Shown piece after piece: positions 19,354-26,207 of a stretch of DNA of 32,627 bases; within the stretch, counting starts at the first letter, position 1; every line of letters begins with the position of its first letter. The stretch lies in contig VFZY01000052.1 of NCBI GenBank assembly GCA_016870915.1, forward strand, positions 1 to 32,627. The letters run 5' to 3'. The position numbers and the translations under genes are program-made. The DNA is from Acidobacteriota bacterium (GTDB taxonomy: Bacteria > Acidobacteriota > Terriglobia > Bryobacterales > Bryobacteraceae). A model generated the notes under the pieces. The model worked only from the letters and a program-made list of their open reading frames with translations, did no database searches and was not told where the DNA came from.

Positions 19354-21207
19354 TTACCGCACCGCGACCCGGAGCGAATAGCTGCCGGTGACCATCTGGT
19401 CCATGGCCAGGGAAGCCTGCTCCACGGCCGTTTCGTTCGCCGCCACCAGCGCGCGGCTGGAAGCGCGGCCCGTCTGCATCGCGTTCAGGATGGACGAAGG
19501 CAACCCGGGCATCACCTTGTCGTCGTAATAAACAGCCGGCCGGGTCTCCACCAGCGATACGTAGAGCCGGTTGTTGCTCCGTTCCTGATTGATCAGCGAC
19601 ACGGTTTCAGTCAGGTCAATGAAACGGTTGGTCTGTCCGGCGATGCTCTGCACCCGGTTCAGCGTGTCGGCATCGCTCACCAGAATGCGATGCTCGCCCC
19701 GCGCGATGCCCGCCGGAATCCGCACCCGCACCTCGCGCTCAATCCGCGTGCCGCGATACGGGCGCAGATAGATCCGTACCGGCACCTCCGCCCCCGCCTC
19801 CACTTCATTGGACCCGATCCAGGCGCTCTCAATGGCCGCCGAGCGGCGCGCCGGCAGCAGATCGATCGTTGCCTCAACGCCCTTCAGCCGCGGCGGCTTC
19901 ACCGGATTGGCGAACAGCCGGTTGAACTTCTCGCCCCACCAGTTGGCCAGCACCATCGGCGGCGGGATTGGAATCTCCGTCGGCGCCTGCATGTTCTGAA
20001 GCGACAGGCTCGAATAGCCGTCCAGGTCCACCTTGCCGGAAAGCCGGTAGGTGGCATCGTCCGAAAAGTCGTTGACGCCCGAAACCGAGTTGAACAGCGT
20101 CATCATCATCAGGAACGGAGTCCACTTCTGCTGCACAAAGACGTCAAAGCGGAAGTTCTTCTCCTTCACCACAGCGTCGTTCTCCCCGCGCGACCGTACC
20201 TTCACACGCACCGGGATGGTGGCCGCTTCGGCGCCCAGAACTCCCATGATTCCGGAGTGGCGGTCCTGCTTGAGTGCCCCGACGATCTCCGTGGCGTTGC
20301 CAAACTTGTTGGGCTGAAACTGCGAGGAGAGCACCATCAGGATCTCGCCCTTGCTCATCGGCATCTCCACGGGACCCAGGTTGAAGAACGGATGCCCGAA
20401 CGCCAGCACGCGCCGGCCATCGTTGTAGCTCACCGTTCCCAGTCCCGTGATGCTCATGTCGCCGCTCACCAGAACCCCGGTCACCGCGTCGCCGGGCAGC
20501 AGCGCATTCGCATAGCCCGCCACCGGTTTCGACCCCGTTAACGAACCAGCCGCACCCCCCTGCGCCGCCGTGATCCCTAGTTGTTCGAAATAGCCCCGGA
20601 ACTGGCTCAGCACCTCCGTGCTGAAACCTGAAAACGTGAGCGGAGTCTCGATGGGCACCATCACCGGCCGTGCACTGGCAGGCGCGTTCATCACGTCGGC
20701 GGCCAGCGAATCCGGCAGCTCCAGCCGTGCCCGGTTGGCGCCGGTTCCGGGAACCTTGGGCGCCGCCGGCCGGCTCTGGTCAAAGTCGTTGATCTCCAGC
20801 ATCAGTTCAATCGGCGTGATTCCGCAGATGGCATCCGGGCTGAAAATACTCATGCGCAGGGCCACGGCGCCAATCAGCTTCCCGTCCACGTATACCGGGC
20901 TGCCGCTCATGCCGCCCGCCACGTTCGTCCGCTGGGCTTTACCGCCCATCTTGCCCAAAATGATGTCCTGGCGTGGCCCCCAGGCGTTCTTCCACAGCCC
21001 GATGATCTCAATCGGAACCGGTTCCGGCTCGCTGCCCTCGAATACCGTCCAGGCGATGGCTTGCATGCCCCGCTTCACTTCGCCCGCCTTCAGAATCTCC
21101 ACCTTGCCCGCGCGCGGACGCTCCGGCGCCGCCGTAAGCAGGGCGGCCGTCAGCAAGCCGCAAAGGACGCGCACGGCGATCGCCGGGCGAGAAATGGTTA
21201 ATGGCAC
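19354..21207 (-). CDS. SpoIVB/S55 peptidase domain-containing exported protein
   Basis: 617 residues. A signal peptide (1-27) is followed by an S55-like region with the serine motif GGMSGSPVYVDGK (98-110, Ser101) and ITPIELML (130-137). Further on is GLGTVSYNDGRRVLAFGHPF (255-274, His272). Ser and His correspond to the catalytic pair of Bacillus SpoIVB, but here the Ser motif precedes the His motif. From memory, homologues across Acidobacteria share this order. The remaining ~290 residues are beta-rich. There is no sporulation in this phylum, so the role is unknown; periplasmic protease or regulatory cleavage is possible. The GTG at 21205-21207 with GGAG just upstream is chosen. Frames extending to 21663 run antisense to the PPIase gene and are rejected. 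First gene of its operon. Confidence 0.85.
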   Translation of the reverse strand: MPLTISRPAIAVRVLCGLLTAALLTAAPERPRAGKVEILKAGEVKRGMQAIAWTVFEGSEPEPVPIEIIGLWKNAWGPRQDIILGKMGGKAQRTNVAGGMSGSPVYVDGKLIGAVALRMSIFSPDAICGITPIELMLEINDFDQSRPAAPKVPGTGANRARLELPDSLAADVMNAPASARPVMVPIETPLTFSGFSTEVLSQFRGYFEQLGITAAQGGAAGSLTGSKPVAGYANALLPGDAVTGVLVSGDMSITGLGTVSYNDGRRVLAFGHPFFNLGPVEMPMSKGEILMVLSSQFQPNKFGNATEIVGALKQDRHSGIMGVLGAEAATIPVRVKVRSRGENDAVVKEKNFRFDVFVQQKWTPFLMMMTLFNSVSGVNDFSDDATYRLSGKVDLDGYSSLSLQNMQAPTEIPIPPPMVLANWWGEKFNRLFANPVKPPRLKGVEATIDLLPARRSAAIESAWIGSNEVEAGAEVPVRIYLRPYRGTRIEREVRVRIPAGIARGEHRILVSDADTLNRVQSIAGQTNRFIDLTETVSLINQERSNNRLYVSLVETRPAVYYDDKVMPGLPSSILNAMQTGRASSRALVAANETAVEQASLAMDQMVTGSYSLRVAVR

Positions 21208-21222
21208 GATAGCTCCGCTTCC

Positions 21223-21281: not shown

Positions 21282-21291
21282 GAACGTTCAT
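21280..21291. repeat. 12-base perfect palindrome overlapping the PPIase start codon
   Basis: ATGAACGTTCAT is fully self-complementary. It lies directly after the TATCAT box and includes the first two bases of the start ATG. At this position it could be an operator or a small hairpin that hides the start codon, but a 12-base palindrome can occur by chance. Confidence 0.4.
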
Positions 21292-22141
21292 GCCTGTTAT
21301 CGTCAACGGCGAACGGATCGAGGACGCCGCCATTCTGGAAGAGCAGCGGCTCATCCGGCCGCGTTTGCAGGAAGCCATGGAGAACGAGCCGCCCGAGGTC
21401 ATCGACGCCCGCGTCACGCAATGGGCCCGCGAAAACGTCATCGAGCGCGCCCTGCTGCGCCAGGCCGCGCTGGCGGACCCTGAGCCCGTGCCCGCCGAAG
21501 CCCTCGAATCCGCCCTCCGCGAAGTCCGCGACAACACTCCCGGCCAGACCGGCTGCGTGCTGCCCGGCCCCGAAGATACCGTGCGCGCAGAGGTCGACCT
21601 GCGCCTCCGCGTCGATCGCCTGTTCGAACGTGCCGCGCGCCACGTCGGCAAGCCGCCGTCCAAGGATATCGCCGAGTACTACCGCAAGAACCGCGCCGAG
21701 TTTCAACGCCCGGAGACCATCCACGCCGCCCACATCGTGAAGAACGTCGACGCCAACACGGACGAGGCCACTGCCCGTGAAGCCATCGGCCAAGTGGAAG
21801 TCCGGCTCCGCGAGGGCGCCGATTTCGCTGAACTCGCCGATGAACTCTCTGACTGCCCCGGCCGCGGCGGCGACCTCGGCTTCTTCCCGCGCGGTGAAAT
21901 GGTGGAAGAGTTCGATGAAGCCGTGTTCCCCCTGCCCGTCGGCGGCACCACCGGCATCTTCCGCAGCCCGTTCGGCTTCCACATCGCCCGCCTCCTCGAA
22001 CGCCGGCCCGCCGGCGCCCTGGCCCTGGAAGAGGTGAAAGACCAGATCTCGGCCACTCTGCACCAGCAGCGGCGCGAGAAGGCCATTGAGATGTACCTCG
22101 ACCGCCTCTGGAAAAACGCCCGCATTGAGGACGTCCCGTGA
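21290..22141 (+). CDS. Parvulin-type peptidyl-prolyl cis-trans isomerase (PpiC/SurA-like)
   Basis: 283 residues. An N-terminal helical region (about 10-130), as in SurA/NifM-type chaperones, precedes one parvulin domain (about 141-240) with THAAHIVK-like start (143-151), GRGGDLGFFPRGEMVEEF (191-208) and SPFGFHIARLLE (226-237). A charged C-terminal helix follows. There is no signal peptide or lipobox, so it should act in the cytoplasm, unlike SurA or PrsA. Cys89 and Cys189 are present. Its stop overlaps the GTG start of the FGE gene (GTGA). A chaperone encoded with FGE could help present unfolded sulfatase substrates or fold the FGE itself; that link is inferred only from the coupling. Confidence 0.88.
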   Translation: MPVIVNGERIEDAAILEEQRLIRPRLQEAMENEPPEVIDARVTQWARENVIERALLRQAALADPEPVPAEALESALREVRDNTPGQTGCVLPGPEDTVRAEVDLRLRVDRLFERAARHVGKPPSKDIAEYYRKNRAEFQRPETIHAAHIVKNVDANTDEATAREAIGQVEVRLREGADFAELADELSDCPGRGGDLGFFPRGEMVEEFDEAVFPLPVGGTTGIFRSPFGFHIARLLERRPAGALALEEVKDQISATLHQQRREKAIEMYLDRLWKNARIEDVP

Positions 22142-23130
22142 AGCCTGAGTTCAAGCTCTTTGCCGAGGCGGGCGCCGTCCACCCCTGTTGCTCCCCCACG
22201 CGCGCCCGGGCCGTGCGCCTCCAAGAGTCGCGCCAGCGGTCCGCCGAACGTCTCCACGCCGCATCCGGCTCCACCGCCGGCATGGTCAAGCTCGAAGGTG
22301 GAACCTTCTGGATGGGCACCGACGATGAGGAAGGCTTTCCCGCCGATGGCGAAGGCCCCATTCGCGACGTCACACTGGCCCCGTTCTGGGTGGACGCCCA
22401 TCCCGTCACCAACCAGCAGTTCTCGGAGTTCGTCCACGCCGCCAACTACGTCACCGAAGCCGAGCGTTTTGGCTGGTCCTTTGTCTTTCAGGGCCACATC
22501 GAAAGCGGCCGCTATGCCTCCGTGGTGAGCGATAACGCACCTGGCACCCGTTGGTGGTGCAAGGTGGACGGAGCCCAATGGCGGCATCCGGAAGGCCCTG
22601 ATACCTCCATCGGCGCGCGGCCCAATCACCCCGTGGTTCACGTCTCCTGGACCGATGCCGCTGCCTACGCCGCCTGGGCCGGCAAGCGCCTTCCCACCGA
22701 GGCCGAATGGGAGTTCGCCGCGCGGGGCGGCCTGGAGCAGAATACCTATCCCTGGGGCAACGAACTCACGCCCGGCGGACGCCATCTATGCAACGTCTGG
22801 CAGGGCGATTTCCCCGTCGCCGACCTGGGCGAGGACGGCTTCACCGCTCCCGCGCCCGTGGACGCCTTCCCGCCCAACGGCTACGGCCTCTACGCCGTCT
22901 CCGGCAATACCTGGGAATGGTGCGCGGACTGGTTCCACCCCACGTATCACTTGACAGCGTCACGGTTCAACCCCGTGGGCCCCGCCTCCGGCTCCAATCG
23001 CGCCATGCGCGGCGGCTCCTATCTCTGCCACCGTTCGTACTGCAACCGGTACCGTGTGGCGGCCCGAACTTCCAACACCCCCGATAGCGCCACCACCAAT
23101 ATCGGGTTCCGCTGCGTGAGGGATCTATGA
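22138..23130 (+). CDS. Formylglycine-generating enzyme (sulfatase-activating, SUMF1/FGE type)
   Basis: 330 residues. Oxidises a Cys in the CxPxR motif of sulfatases to C-alpha-formylglycine, using O2 and copper. The FGE fold starts at about 48 (GMVKLEGGTFWMGT). The copper-binding active-site pair is intact: Cys297 and Cys302 in GGSYLCHRSYC, followed by NRYRVAAR, SNTPDS and IGFRC. This matches true bacterial FGEs such as the Streptomyces enzyme and separates it from the many FGE-fold proteins lacking these Cys. A CCSPTR segment at 17-22 resembles the N-terminal Cys pair of some actinobacterial FGEs. It starts with GTG overlapping the PPIase stop and ends overlapping the glycosidase start (ATGA). 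No sulfatase is encoded in this window, so its substrates lie elsewhere. Confidence 0.92.
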   Translation: MKPEFKLFAEAGAVHPCCSPTRARAVRLQESRQRSAERLHAASGSTAGMVKLEGGTFWMGTDDEEGFPADGEGPIRDVTLAPFWVDAHPVTNQQFSEFVHAANYVTEAERFGWSFVFQGHIESGRYASVVSDNAPGTRWWCKVDGAQWRHPEGPDTSIGARPNHPVVHVSWTDAAAYAAWAGKRLPTEAEWEFAARGGLEQNTYPWGNELTPGGRHLCNVWQGDFPVADLGEDGFTAPAPVDAFPPNGYGLYAVSGNTWEWCADWFHPTYHLTASRFNPVGPASGSNRAMRGGSYLCHRSYCNRYRVAARTSNTPDSATTNIGFRCVRDL

Positions 23131-24590
23131 GAGCCATGGCTGTTCTTGCCTTGTTGGCCGCCGGGGCGTCCGCGGCCGATCGCCTTCCGTTTGGTCTCAC
23201 CGCCTCTCGGGCCGTGCTCGAAGCCTCCCTCGCCGGCCGCGGCCCATCGCGCCTTCTGCTCCTGGGCGGCCTGGATGGTTCGCCCGGCGCCACGCAACGC
23301 GTGCGGGACGAGATCATCGCCGTCGAACGGTCAAGGAAACTGGCCGGCCGCTTCGCCGTCACCGCTGTTGCCGCGGCCAACCCCGGCAATGCCGCTCTTG
23401 CGTTTCCCCCCACAGGCGATGCCTACCGCGACCAGCCGGAGTCTCATGCGCTGTGGCGGTTCATTTTGGCTGAAGCTCCGGATGCCGTGGTGATCGTAGG
23501 CCCGGATGCAGGCTTGGGCGAGGCTCTGAAATCGCTCGCCATTCCAGTCGAGCGGGCGCCGGAAAAAGGAGCCATCCTCACCCGCCTCAAGCCCCCCGTT
23601 CGATCCCAGGCGCGCATCGCCTTGGAAGCCCGCGCTGCCCGGACGCCCCGCCAGGTGGCCGATCAACTGGCCAAGGTCTATGGCTACGAACTGAACGAGG
23701 TGGCCTACATCCCGGCCTTCGCGCTGATCGCGCGGGCGCGCCTGGGCGCCGTGGCGGAGATCGAGAAAATCGTCGAGCCGTACCGCTCCGGGTCGCGCGA
23801 CAGCCTGGCGAAAGCCACCTCCAGCCACTTCTCCGGCCACTTGGTCTTCGCCGATCTGGCGCGCCGCACACGGAACCCGCGGTACATCGAACTCGTCCGC
23901 GCCGCGGCCAACATGGGCTTCGATGCGGACGGCAAGCCCAGGGAATCGATGCCCATGCACAACCGCATGAGTGACTCTGTGTTCATGGGCTCGCCCATTC
24001 TTGCGGCGGCCGGCGTTCTCACCGGCGAACGCAAGTATCTCGACATGGCCGGCGTGCATTACCGCTTCATGCGGGCCCTCGACCTGCGGCCCGATGGCAT
24101 CTGGCGCCACTCACCGCTCGATGAAGCGGCCTGGGGACGCGGCAACGCATTCGCCCTGCTGGGCCAGGTGCTCACACTCTCATGGCTCCCCGCCAGCCAT
24201 CCCGATTTCGACCCCATCCTCCGCGATTTCCAGAATCTGGCGGCGGCCCTGGCAAAGCACCAGGACGCATCCGGCATGTGGCGCCAGGTCATCGACCATC
24301 CGGGCGCCTACCGTGAGTTCACGGCCACCAGCATGATCGCCCGGTCTCTGCTCATCGGAATCCGCAAGGGCTGGCTCGACGCGAAATCCTATCAGCCCCG
24401 CGTCGACCGCGCCTGGCGCGCCATCAACGAACGGATTTCACCCGAGGGGGAATTCACCGACGTCTGCGAATCCACCGGCGCCCAGAAATCCCTGGAAGAC
24501 TACCTGCGGCGCAAAGCGGTCTTCGGCCGCGACCCCCGCGGAGGCGCCATGGCCCTTCTCTTCGCCACCGAAATGGCCGGCCTCGATTGA
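23127..24590 (+). CDS. Exported GH88/GH105-like glycoside hydrolase (unsaturated uronyl hydrolase type)
   Basis: 487 residues with a signal peptide (1-17). Residues about 170-485 form an alpha/alpha-barrel of the GH88/GH105 type. The likely catalytic Asp283 is in NRMSDSVFMGSP, the hallmark WGRGNAFALLG is at 336-346, and the C-terminal signature SGMWRQVID...ATSMIARSLL covers 382-409. Such enzymes remove the unsaturated uronic acid left by polysaccharide lyases. Residues about 40-135 are an additional alpha/beta domain not part of the barrel. Overlaps of four bases with FGE upstream and with the sigma factor downstream (TTGA) place it in one operon. Pairing with FGE suggests a sulfated uronate-containing polysaccharide as target, which is inference. 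Confidence 0.83.
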   Translation: MRAMAVLALLAAGASAADRLPFGLTASRAVLEASLAGRGPSRLLLLGGLDGSPGATQRVRDEIIAVERSRKLAGRFAVTAVAAANPGNAALAFPPTGDAYRDQPESHALWRFILAEAPDAVVIVGPDAGLGEALKSLAIPVERAPEKGAILTRLKPPVRSQARIALEARAARTPRQVADQLAKVYGYELNEVAYIPAFALIARARLGAVAEIEKIVEPYRSGSRDSLAKATSSHFSGHLVFADLARRTRNPRYIELVRAAANMGFDADGKPRESMPMHNRMSDSVFMGSPILAAAGVLTGERKYLDMAGVHYRFMRALDLRPDGIWRHSPLDEAAWGRGNAFALLGQVLTLSWLPASHPDFDPILRDFQNLAAALAKHQDASGMWRQVIDHPGAYREFTATSMIARSLLIGIRKGWLDAKSYQPRVDRAWRAINERISPEGEFTDVCESTGAQKSLEDYLRRKAVFGRDPRGGAMALLFATEMAGLD

Positions 24591-25033
24591 CCCGGTCTCA
24601 ATCAATCAGTGAGCCCTTCGAGGAGATCGCCCTCGGCCACCTCGACGATCTTTACCGCGCCGCTCTGCGCCTGTGTGGCGGTGATTCCCGCGCCGCTGAG
24701 CGCCTCGTCGAGGACGCCGTGCTCGACTGCCACCGGCGCTACCGGCAATACGCCGGCCGGCCCTCGCCGCGGCTCTGGCTCCTGCAATCCCTCTTCCGCG
24801 CCTCGGCTGATGCCCCCACCGTCGAGCAGGACCCGGTGCTCCGTGCCCTCGATCTGTTGCCCCGGCCACGGCGTGACGCCGTGCTGCTGGTGGATTGTCT
24901 GGAAACCTCGTCCGCTGGCGGCGCCGAGGTCCTGGGGCTATCCCCCGAAGCCTTCGCCGGCCTCCTCGCCGAAGGGCGGCGCGACTTGCTAAAACAACCG
25001 GGAATAGATGCCGCCGCCGGGGGGATTTCGTGA
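24587..25033 (+). CDS. Small ECF-like RNA polymerase sigma factor
   Basis: 148 residues, shorter than usual ECF sigma factors (about 170-200). Residues 14-72 resemble region 2 (HLDDLYRAALRLCGG...RLWLLQSLF) and 85-137 resemble region 4 with its helix-turn-helix (GAEVLGLSPEAFAGLLAEGR). The linker is minimal. Both regions are weak matches, so it may be degenerate or highly specialised. The identification is helped by the next gene, a zinc-finger anti-sigma factor 19 bases downstream. The start is a TTG that overlaps the glycosidase stop (TTGA); no ATG or GTG is available near it in this frame. It may control its own operon or receptor/hydrolase genes elsewhere. Confidence 0.7.
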   Translation: MTRSQSISEPFEEIALGHLDDLYRAALRLCGGDSRAAERLVEDAVLDCHRRYRQYAGRPSPRLWLLQSLFRASADAPTVEQDPVLRALDLLPRPRRDAVLLVDCLETSSAGGAEVLGLSPEAFAGLLAEGRRDLLKQPGIDAAAGGIS

Positions 25034-25052
25034 ACAGGAGGTCGAAGGCAGC

Positions 25053-26207
25053 ATGAACATCGAATGCCGCGCCCTCCGTCCGCTTCTGGACCGGTACCTC
25101 AGCCGCGACCTCGATCCGGAGCTGAATGAGCGTGTTGTCTCGCACCTTGCGGCGTGCACGGAATGCGGTGCGATCGTCGAAACTAACTGGCGCGTGAAAC
25201 GGGCCCTGCGCCGCGCCTGGGACGCCGAAGCGCCTCCCAGGGATCTGGCCGCGCGCATTCAGGCCAGCCTCGGCGCGGAGAAGCAGTGCGATGACCCGGA
25301 ACTTCGCCTCCGTCTGGCGCAGGCAACCCGGGCCGTGACCGCTCCCGCGGCCCTGCACCACCGCATCGCCGCCATGACCGCCGCCAGCCCCGATTTCGAA
25401 GCCTCCGCTCTCAATTGCGCCGCCGCCGCGCCATTGATTCAACAGTACGTCTCGCGCGAAATCGACACCGCCAGCCGCGCCTCCCTGCTCGATCATCTGG
25501 ATACCTGCGAGTCCTGCGCCGGCGAAATCTCCCTTTACACAGCCGCGCGGGACAGGCTTCAGCGTGCGTTTAAACCCCTCACCGCGCCTCCCTACCTGGC
25601 TGCCCGAATCCGCGCCGGGCTCACCGCAAGCGATCGTCTGAATTGGCTCCTCGCGCTGCCATGGAAATGGGCCGGCGCCGCCGCGCTCCTCGCGATCGCC
25701 ATCTGGATCCCGGCCGCCATGCTCAAACAGGCCGGCCGGCCCGCCATTCCTATGGCGTTCTCCGCCCCTCCCGCGTCCCACTTCGCCGATCTCGCGGAAC
25801 CCCTTGAAATCACCGCCGGCCAACTGGCCGATATCTCACCGTCGCCCCTGCTCAGGCAGGCGGCCGGCCATTTTGGCGGCCGCGATCTGGCCGCCGCGGC
25901 GCTCGCCGCCCGGCAGGCGCTCAAGGATAACCCCAAGGATCTGGGTGCCATGCAGATGCTGGCCCTGGTGGAATACGCCAAGGGCAATTGGGCGGAAGCC
26001 TTGGCCCTGTCGAAAAAGGCTCACGCCTATTCGGACCACTCTCCAGCCGTGTGGCAATGCTGGATCACCCTGCAACTGGCGCTGCTCGGCAATGACCTCG
26101 GCCGCATTAAGGATGAATGCGCCGATCTTGAGGAACACGCCGCTCAATACCCGCGCGCCCGTGAGATCCTGCGCCAGGTACGCCTCCGCACCCGGCAACT
26201 CGGCTAA
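25053..26207 (+). CDS. Transmembrane anti-sigma factor with two zf-HC2 domains and TPR-like C-terminus
   Basis: 384 residues. Two zinc-binding anti-sigma domains occur in tandem: Cys5, His31, Cys35, Cys38 (HLAACTEC) and Cys122, His148, Cys152, Cys155 (HLDTCESC). A single transmembrane helix (about 203-224) follows, then a periplasmic region with a helical TPR-like repeat pair (about 268-345). One zf-HC2 domain is normal; two in series are unusual. It would hold the upstream sigma factor at the membrane and release it on a periplasmic signal. The ATG at 25053 follows AGGAGG (25036-25041) by 11 bases; an ATG in frame at 25008 lies inside the sigma gene and is less likely. It overlaps the convergent propeller gene by four bases. 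Confidence 0.85.
   Translation: MNIECRALRPLLDRYLSRDLDPELNERVVSHLAACTECGAIVETNWRVKRALRRAWDAEAPPRDLAARIQASLGAEKQCDDPELRLRLAQATRAVTAPAALHHRIAAMTAASPDFEASALNCAAAAPLIQQYVSREIDTASRASLLDHLDTCESCAGEISLYTAARDRLQRAFKPLTAPPYLAARIRAGLTASDRLNWLLALPWKWAGAAALLAIAIWIPAAMLKQAGRPAIPMAFSAPPASHFADLAEPLEITAGQLADISPSPLLRQAAGHFGGRDLAAAALAARQALKDNPKDLGAMQMLALVEYAKGNWAEALALSKKAHAYSDHSPAVWQCWITLQLALLGNDLGRIKDECADLEEHAAQYPRAREILRQVRLRTRQLG

Follow-up and report, generated by a model that had tools for sequence, protein, structure and literature searches.

A conserved cysteine-pair arm on prokaryotic formylglycine-generating enzymes and a parvulin-FGE gene pair in Bryobacterales: a possible means of copper loading

The stretch analyzed here, herein referred to as the window, comprises positions 1 to 32,627 of contig VFZY01000052.1 (contig C52) from an Acidobacteriota bacterium of the order Bryobacterales (assembly GCA_016870915.1; 6.6 Mb, 367 contigs). 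It encodes a formylglycine-generating enzyme (FGE) and, overlapping it upstream, a parvulin-type peptidyl-prolyl isomerase (PPIase). Two features of this locus are conserved: the PPIase-FGE gene pair, found in most of the related genomes with a long-type FGE, and an N-terminal arm of the FGE that carries two adjacent cysteines (the CC motif). We propose, with a probability of about 0.4 for the combined reading, that the two genes form a sulfatase-maturation pair, consisting of a cytoplasmic parvulin chaperone and the one canonical FGE of the genome, and that the arm would be a substrate-mimicking dithiol that docks in the enzyme's own groove and loads it with Cu(I). The features of the pair are the following:

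21290..22141, plus strand: SurA/NifM-like parvulin PPIase, 283 amino acids, no signal peptide evident (Pfam Rotamase_3, 4e-21)
22138..23130, plus strand: canonical aerobic FGE, 330 amino acids, GTG start overlapping the PPIase stop codon (PF03781, 1.8e-85)
22186..22203, plus strand: arm motif CCSPTR, residues 17-22, the Cys pair plus CxPxR (alignment of 56 FGEs)
22198..22248, plus strand: predicted arm helix, residues 21-37, lying after the Cys pair and before the core (AlphaFold2, fair confidence)
23026..23043, plus strand: active-site stretch C297-H-R-S-Y-C302, corresponding to human Cys336/Cys341

The window FGE scores 287.1 bits against PF03781 (cut-off 23.3), and its best PDB match is the FGE of Thermomonospora curvata (7.9e-123). 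Residues S294, C297, H298, S300, Y301, and C302 are invariant in 56 aligned FGEs; the window FGE was also aligned to the human and T. curvata enzymes, and the active-site cysteines of the human enzyme are numbered as in PMC4505483. By its domain and active-site residues, the protein is classified as an aerobic SUMF1-type FGE, and copper-dependent conversion of the CxPxR cysteine to formylglycine is predicted for it. Alignment A1 leaves out locus L114, where no standard start was found, and alignment A2 leaves out L084, L095, and L113.

Upstream of the core, the segment reads PCCSPTRARAV and contains only two cysteines, adjacent to each other. Residues C17, C18, and P20 of this arm are invariant in the 56 aligned long-type FGEs, alongside the catalytic residues, and R24, S31, and S45 are nearly invariant in the FGEs of the order. 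The pentapeptide CSPTR is the same as in several sulfatases of the same genome. In the AlphaFold2 model, arm residues 21-40 have a mean predicted local distance difference test score (pLDDT) of 80-93; the Cys pair scores about 54, and the active-site loop is low as well. A search of the PDB with the arm alone (a 48-residue consensus) gave no significant match (best E-value 0.59).

To assess conservation, 120 genomes of the order were searched with the window FGE. Matches at E ≤ 1e-60 were found in 60 genomes, and 57 of these, the window's own included, have a long-type FGE (more than 450 bits). The FGE loci of all 56 relatives were taken with flanks of up to 8 kb, as far as each contig reached; at least 4 kb downstream of the FGE gene is present in 51 of them. 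A PPIase of the window type adjoins the FGE in 53 of the 56 relatives, i.e., in 54 of 57 genomes with the window counted. One of these pairs is divergently oriented (L095), and no PPIase homologue was found near the FGE in L110, L111, and L118. In the 52 same-strand pairs, with starts assigned by a script, the two genes overlap in 30 cases, are 0-60 bases apart in 13, and are separated by more than 60 bases in nine. Three further genes follow in the window, encoding a glycosidase of family GH88, a sigma factor, and an anti-sigma factor. None of the three has a tblastn match (E ≤ 1e-3) within the FGE flanks of the 56 relatives, and thus the conserved module consists of the PPIase and the FGE. 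The first-pass annotation had read all five genes as a possible regulated module; its coupling of PPIase and FGE holds, and the larger module does not, its five-gene order being seen in none of the 56 relatives and unique to this contig within the search.

The parvulin belongs to the SurA/PpiC-type PPIases by both domain score (PF13616, 76.2 bits against a cut-off of 22.5) and fold. Its AlphaFold2 model (mean pLDDT 92.7) matches the parvulin domains of Pin1, PrsA, and SurA entries with Z of about 17, including SurA 1m5y (Z 17.1 over 257 residues, root-mean-square deviation 8.9). Residues H148, L196, M204, F208, and H231, the putative catalytic positions, are invariant in 51 aligned sequences; we take them to correspond to the equivalent positions of Pin1. 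NifM, the best NCBIfam match (TIGR02933), resembles the window protein in being a parvulin with a helical N-terminal part encoded beside a metalloenzyme gene, but the score of 88.3 bits lies below the cut-off of 168.2, and the assignment as NifM was rejected. Outside the order, a parvulin gene was found by tblastn beside the FGE gene in L159, L221, and L222 among 104 further loci, counted after setting aside L140-L144, which belong to the order. The simplest reading, as yet unproven, would be that sulfatase maturation has its own chaperone for X-Pro chains in this parvulin. In L091-L093 and L099-L101, a second PPIase gene, long and by eye encoding a membrane-anchored protein, lies downstream of the FGE gene in convergent orientation.

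Sulfatases of the Cys type were expected elsewhere in the genome by the first-pass annotation, and such genes are abundant: 81 matches to PF00884 were found, 79 of them above the cut-off, some being pieces of one gene. The CxPxR motif is present in 29 of the 30 best matches; the remaining one, L027, was read on the wrong strand. In the window itself no FGE-sulfatase gene pair was found, the FGE neighbors being the PPIase and GH88 genes. Absence of an adjacent sulfatase is common in the group. Of the 52 loci analyzed, 12 have a sulfatase-like gene no more than 5.5 kb from the FGE; 15 copies of this gene were counted, and CxPxR is present in 13 of them. The genome contains 19 matches to PF03781, of which only the window gene matches the full FGE at E ≤ 1e-60. 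Most likely, therefore, the clients of the window FGE are sulfatases whose genes are scattered through the genome, in line with the first guess. On contigs C105, C153, and C257, PF03781 was found within open frames of 750-950 codons, which probably encode fusion proteins.

The arm motif is not restricted to the order. Named loci are the best 80 of 582 found in GTDB genomes, and at most 30 loci were fetched per genome search; this sampling is biased toward query-like FGEs. A hydrophobic N-terminus was called by ad hoc cut-offs on the mean over 14 residues (1.85 in the census by groups and 1.75 in the census by clusters). For the cluster census, 267 rows were merged to 251 unique cores and then clustered at 70% identity. 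The CC motif was found in all 57 FGEs of the order set. Among the named loci, it is present in 59 of 64 FGEs without a hydrophobic N-terminus vs. 1 of 16 with one, and in the same phylum outside the order in 23 of 24 vs. 0 of 5. The same holds for the unique FGEs (195/203 vs. 4/48) and for the 70%-identity clusters (72/79 vs. 2/33). Complete retention was observed in Streptosporangiales (30/30), Streptomyces of the S. coelicolor type (13/13), and Bacilli (18/18). Additionally, an in-frame CC was found in all 12 plasmid-borne FGEs that were read (selected from 256 records), including 5 of 5 haloarchaeal ones. The arm motif thus recurs in many bacteria and some archaea. In the cores of the same proteins, CC occurs only once in 74,042 residues (repeats included).

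In the 72 clusters with CC, taking the first Cys as position 0, position +3 is Pro in 78%, position +4 is Ser in 43%, and position +5 is Arg in 57%, against a tether background of 9% for Pro, 11% for Ser, and 9% for Arg. Counted from the second Cys, the arm reads C-x-P-S-R, i.e., the substrate motif of FGE itself. The distance from the arm to the core has a median of 29 residues (quartiles 26-31). An internal CC motif presumably exists in another FGE subgroup. A search of the open-licence literature found no description of a prokaryotic CC arm or of a PPIase-FGE pair. Other patterns were observed among exported FGEs. In those of another clade, from Alphaproteobacteria (L320, L322-L327, L329), a single Cys often stands shortly before the core in place of CC. 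In Bacteroidota (L202, L205, L207, L214, L218, L301, L305-L307, L312, L314), C-x(2-5)-P-x-R precedes the core and is reminiscent of the human tail, whose sequence we take to be C-G-C-G-T-P-Q-R, ending in P-x-R.

Both crystallised bacterial FGEs, those of T. curvata and Streptomyces coelicolor (6s07, 5nxl, 2q17, 6muj), share the core of the window protein, whose model matches 2q17_D with Z 36.7 (281 residues, root-mean-square deviation 2.0). They differ in their starts: each crystallised protein begins at a GTG codon past the CC motif encoded upstream, 14 residues from the first Cys in T. curvata and 8 in S. coelicolor. Gene L253 of T. curvata encodes a protein 100% identical to the crystallised core and has a TTG start upstream of CC. 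Translation from its GTG, 14 residues after the CC start, gives 303 amino acids, the length of the 6s07 chain. In three close relatives, L254-L256, the listed stretch contains no start codon past CC, and therefore CC must be translated there. In Streptomyces L282, 99% identical to the S. coelicolor FGE, the sequence HRPCCAP begins 8 residues ahead of a GTG consistent with the crystal start, and in genes of the S. coelicolor type a start codon lies exactly seven codons before CC in 13 of 13 cases. The arm is thus missing from the FGE seen in the bacterial structures. Annotation of the FGE start past CC is a systematic problem, seen in 6 of the 12 plasmid FGEs (L378, L380, L381, L383, L386, L387).

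The descent of the motif was examined on two trees. For the first, cores shorter than 230 amino acids and one row with fewer than 15 residues upstream were dropped. This tree has one main split, between 60 rows with 59 CC and 37 rows with 2 CC, and four changes in total; an independent-pairs test was powerless, with only two pairs that could be used. Because it reflects mainly this one deep split, the contrast with exported FGEs is weak evidence, and it was not accepted as independent evidence that CC is a cytoplasmic adaptation. The second tree, of 106 cores, places the human core on the CC-bearing side (branch support 100; 69 rows, 67 with CC), with its inner position unsettled. The eukaryotic Cys pair may therefore be inherited from CC-bearing FGEs, with homology of the extensions themselves inferred.

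The human enzyme is the closest comparison for a Cys pair before the core. According to a review (PMC7279497), the N-terminal extension of FGE is unique to higher eukaryotes, replacement of human C50/C52 by Ala abolishes sulfatase activation in cells, and the interaction with ERp44 requires these two residues. Holder et al. (2015; PMC4505483) report in vitro activity of the human core lacking the extension. Human and window extensions are thus alike in having a Cys pair upstream of the core (C17-C18 in the window), which in the human protein is needed in cells and dispensable for catalysis in vitro. They differ in that the human cysteines are one residue apart and bind ERp44 in an enzyme of the endoplasmic reticulum (ER), whereas those of the window are adjacent, with no C-x-C spacing. 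A broader reading, in which prokaryotic FGEs possess an overlooked self-metallation arm, missing from both crystallised proteins through the choice of start, with human C50/C52 as its descendant and copper or thiol chemistry rather than ER retention as its first task, is doubtful at present.

For copper supply, PMC4505483 describes FGE as a copper enzyme that is mostly apo when recombinant, and reports that the S. coelicolor FGE produced in E. coli is less active than the human enzyme. The S. coelicolor protein used there corresponds to the GTG start that omits the arm. A precedent for Cu(I) binding by the arm is Cox17, in which, as PMC7582641 indicates, the surface-exposed adjacent pair Cys22-Cys23 binds one Cu(I). 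By analogy, the adjacent pair of the arm could do the same. Cox17 differs in being a separate mitochondrial protein with a twin CX9C fold, whereas the window arm, with its two adjacent cysteines, has no such fold and is the tail of the copper enzyme itself.

In the mechanism proposed here, the arm would present Cys-Cys followed by x-P-x-R at the end of a tether whose length varies little and which spans about 29 residues to the core. By imitating the sulfatase motif it could dock in the substrate groove of its own FGE, where the vicinal dithiol would hand Cu(I) to the two active-site cysteines; an arriving sulfatase chain would then displace the docked arm. The parvulin might hold or isomerise the X-Pro chains of the arm and of the nascent sulfatase, its putative clients. 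Docking in the groove is favored by the presence of Pro, Ser, and Arg where the substrate motif would have them, and CC being retained better than Pro or Arg favors chemistry of a thiol or metal kind over mimicry alone.

Several observations weigh against this proposal. Eight of the 203 unique FGEs without a hydrophobic N-terminus have no CC, the paralogues of the order have none (0/4), and two groups depart from the general pattern: Alphaproteobacteria, with CC in 4 of 6 non-hydrophobic FGEs, and Bacteroidia, with CC in none of 3 non-hydrophobic FGEs and in 3 of 13 that are hydrophobic. The arm Arg occurs in only 13 of the 57 FGEs of the order set, in none of the 13 of the S. coelicolor type (12 of which have Pro), and is absent in T. 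curvata; all 18 Bacilli have the Arg, but Pro is present in just 3 of them. Substrate mimicry by the arm thus appears partial, and CC is the part that stays. With the Cys pair and the active-site loop both of low AlphaFold2 confidence, docking is something that we infer. The link between CC and the cytoplasm depends mainly on the deep split described above and not on repeated events, and the parvulin-FGE pairing is almost confined to Bryobacterales. The core proteins studied become active once copper is added, as PMC4505483 reports, and the arm is accordingly not needed for catalysis itself. The evidence on the prokaryotic arm is wholly computational. As a separate matter, CxPxR was rejected as a strict substrate motif throughout the arms, Arg or Pro being lost in whole groups.

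Among the other explanations, a resident reductant, though unlikely, fares best. The vicinal dithiol would swing into the active site, give two electrons per turnover, and be re-reduced by cellular thiols. Completion of the FGE cycle is stated to need an exogenous reductant (PMC4505483), and CC being much better kept than Pro or Arg fits such thiol chemistry. However, this explanation accounts for neither Pro, Ser, nor Arg at the substrate-motif positions, and a docked mimic would compete with the sulfatase.

Rather improbable is an arm acting as a pseudosubstrate or self-substrate, in which CxPxR would shut the active site until a sulfatase arrives, or the second Cys would itself become formylglycine. 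The window arm is CSPTR, and exact CxPxR is found in 13 of 57 FGEs of the order set, 20 of 59 CC-bearing named loci, 22 of 30 Streptosporangiales, and 3 of 18 Bacilli. Nevertheless, Arg or Pro is lost in groups that keep CC (the S. coelicolor type, the T. curvata type, and most Bacilli), and the first Cys would have no explanation.

Equally improbable is a docking tag for a partner such as the parvulin, the ribosome, or a thioredoxin-like protein, comparable to the human extension, whose C50/C52 are given in PMC7279497 as necessary for the interaction with ERp44. The arm is longer and more conserved in the order, where FGE is paired with the parvulin, and L221 and L222, from Acidobacteria outside the order, share both the arm type and the parvulin. 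Many groups, however, retain the arm and have no homologue of the window parvulin beside the FGE. We know of no common partner for it.

To our knowledge, two questions are open: how copper reaches a cytosolic FGE, and what makes the human Cys pair essential in cells yet dispensable in vitro. With a conserved prokaryotic arm, both become directly testable in simple hosts. A full-length start suggests itself as a practical fix for aldehyde-tag technology. The arm is also relevant to how SUMF1 is interpreted in multiple sulfatase deficiency. The chaperone-FGE pair, in turn, is a candidate maturation module.

The remaining genes of the cluster are local neighbors of the conserved pair:

23127..24590, plus strand: GH88-type glycosidase, outside the conserved unit (PF07470, 7.6e-38, residues 234-484 only)
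24587..25033, plus strand: short sigma factor resembling the extracytoplasmic function type, 148 amino acids (Sigma70_r4_2)
25053..26207, plus strand: anti-sigma factor, ATG at 25053 (two zf-HC2 stretches, weak TPR matches)

The five genes on the plus strand at 21290-26207 were confirmed by reading of the open frames and by Pfam. The GTGA, ATGA, and TTGA overlaps and the 19-base gap were read directly from the sequence, and none of the five products is a sulfatase. The initial observation is thus right, its five-gene interpretation fails, the chaperone-FGE core stands, and the arm is the finding worth following. GH88 homologues are present in 46 of the 120 genomes of the order, and none of 29 GH88 loci of relatives, taken with flanks of about 1.5 kb, has PPIase, FGE, sigma, or anti-sigma genes alongside. 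A five-gene module under sigma control that serves desulfation and cleavage of the chain is therefore highly improbable, despite the tight overlaps in this contig and the Cys-type sulfatases elsewhere in the genome, and was rejected as a conserved unit, since GH88, sigma, and anti-sigma genes are near the FGE in none of the 56 relatives and the GH88 loci lack the other genes.

The GH88 protein scores 130.8 bits against PF07470 (cut-off 26.6). For its first 230 or so residues (23127-23825), neither Pfam nor NCBIfam gave a match above cut-off, and the alignment of several homologues starts only at about residue 145-165. By eye, this N-terminal part faintly resembles a degenerate M14-type fold. 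The sigma factor exceeds the cut-off for Sigma70_r4_2 (29.1 vs. 25.7 bits) and stays below that for Sigma70_r2 (17.3 vs. 24 bits). The anti-sigma factor that follows this very short protein has, by eye, a membrane segment besides its zf-HC2 pair. On the other side of the pair, at 19354-21213 on the minus strand, a gene for a protein with a SpoIVB/S55-type peptidase domain is divergent from the PPIase-FGE genes.

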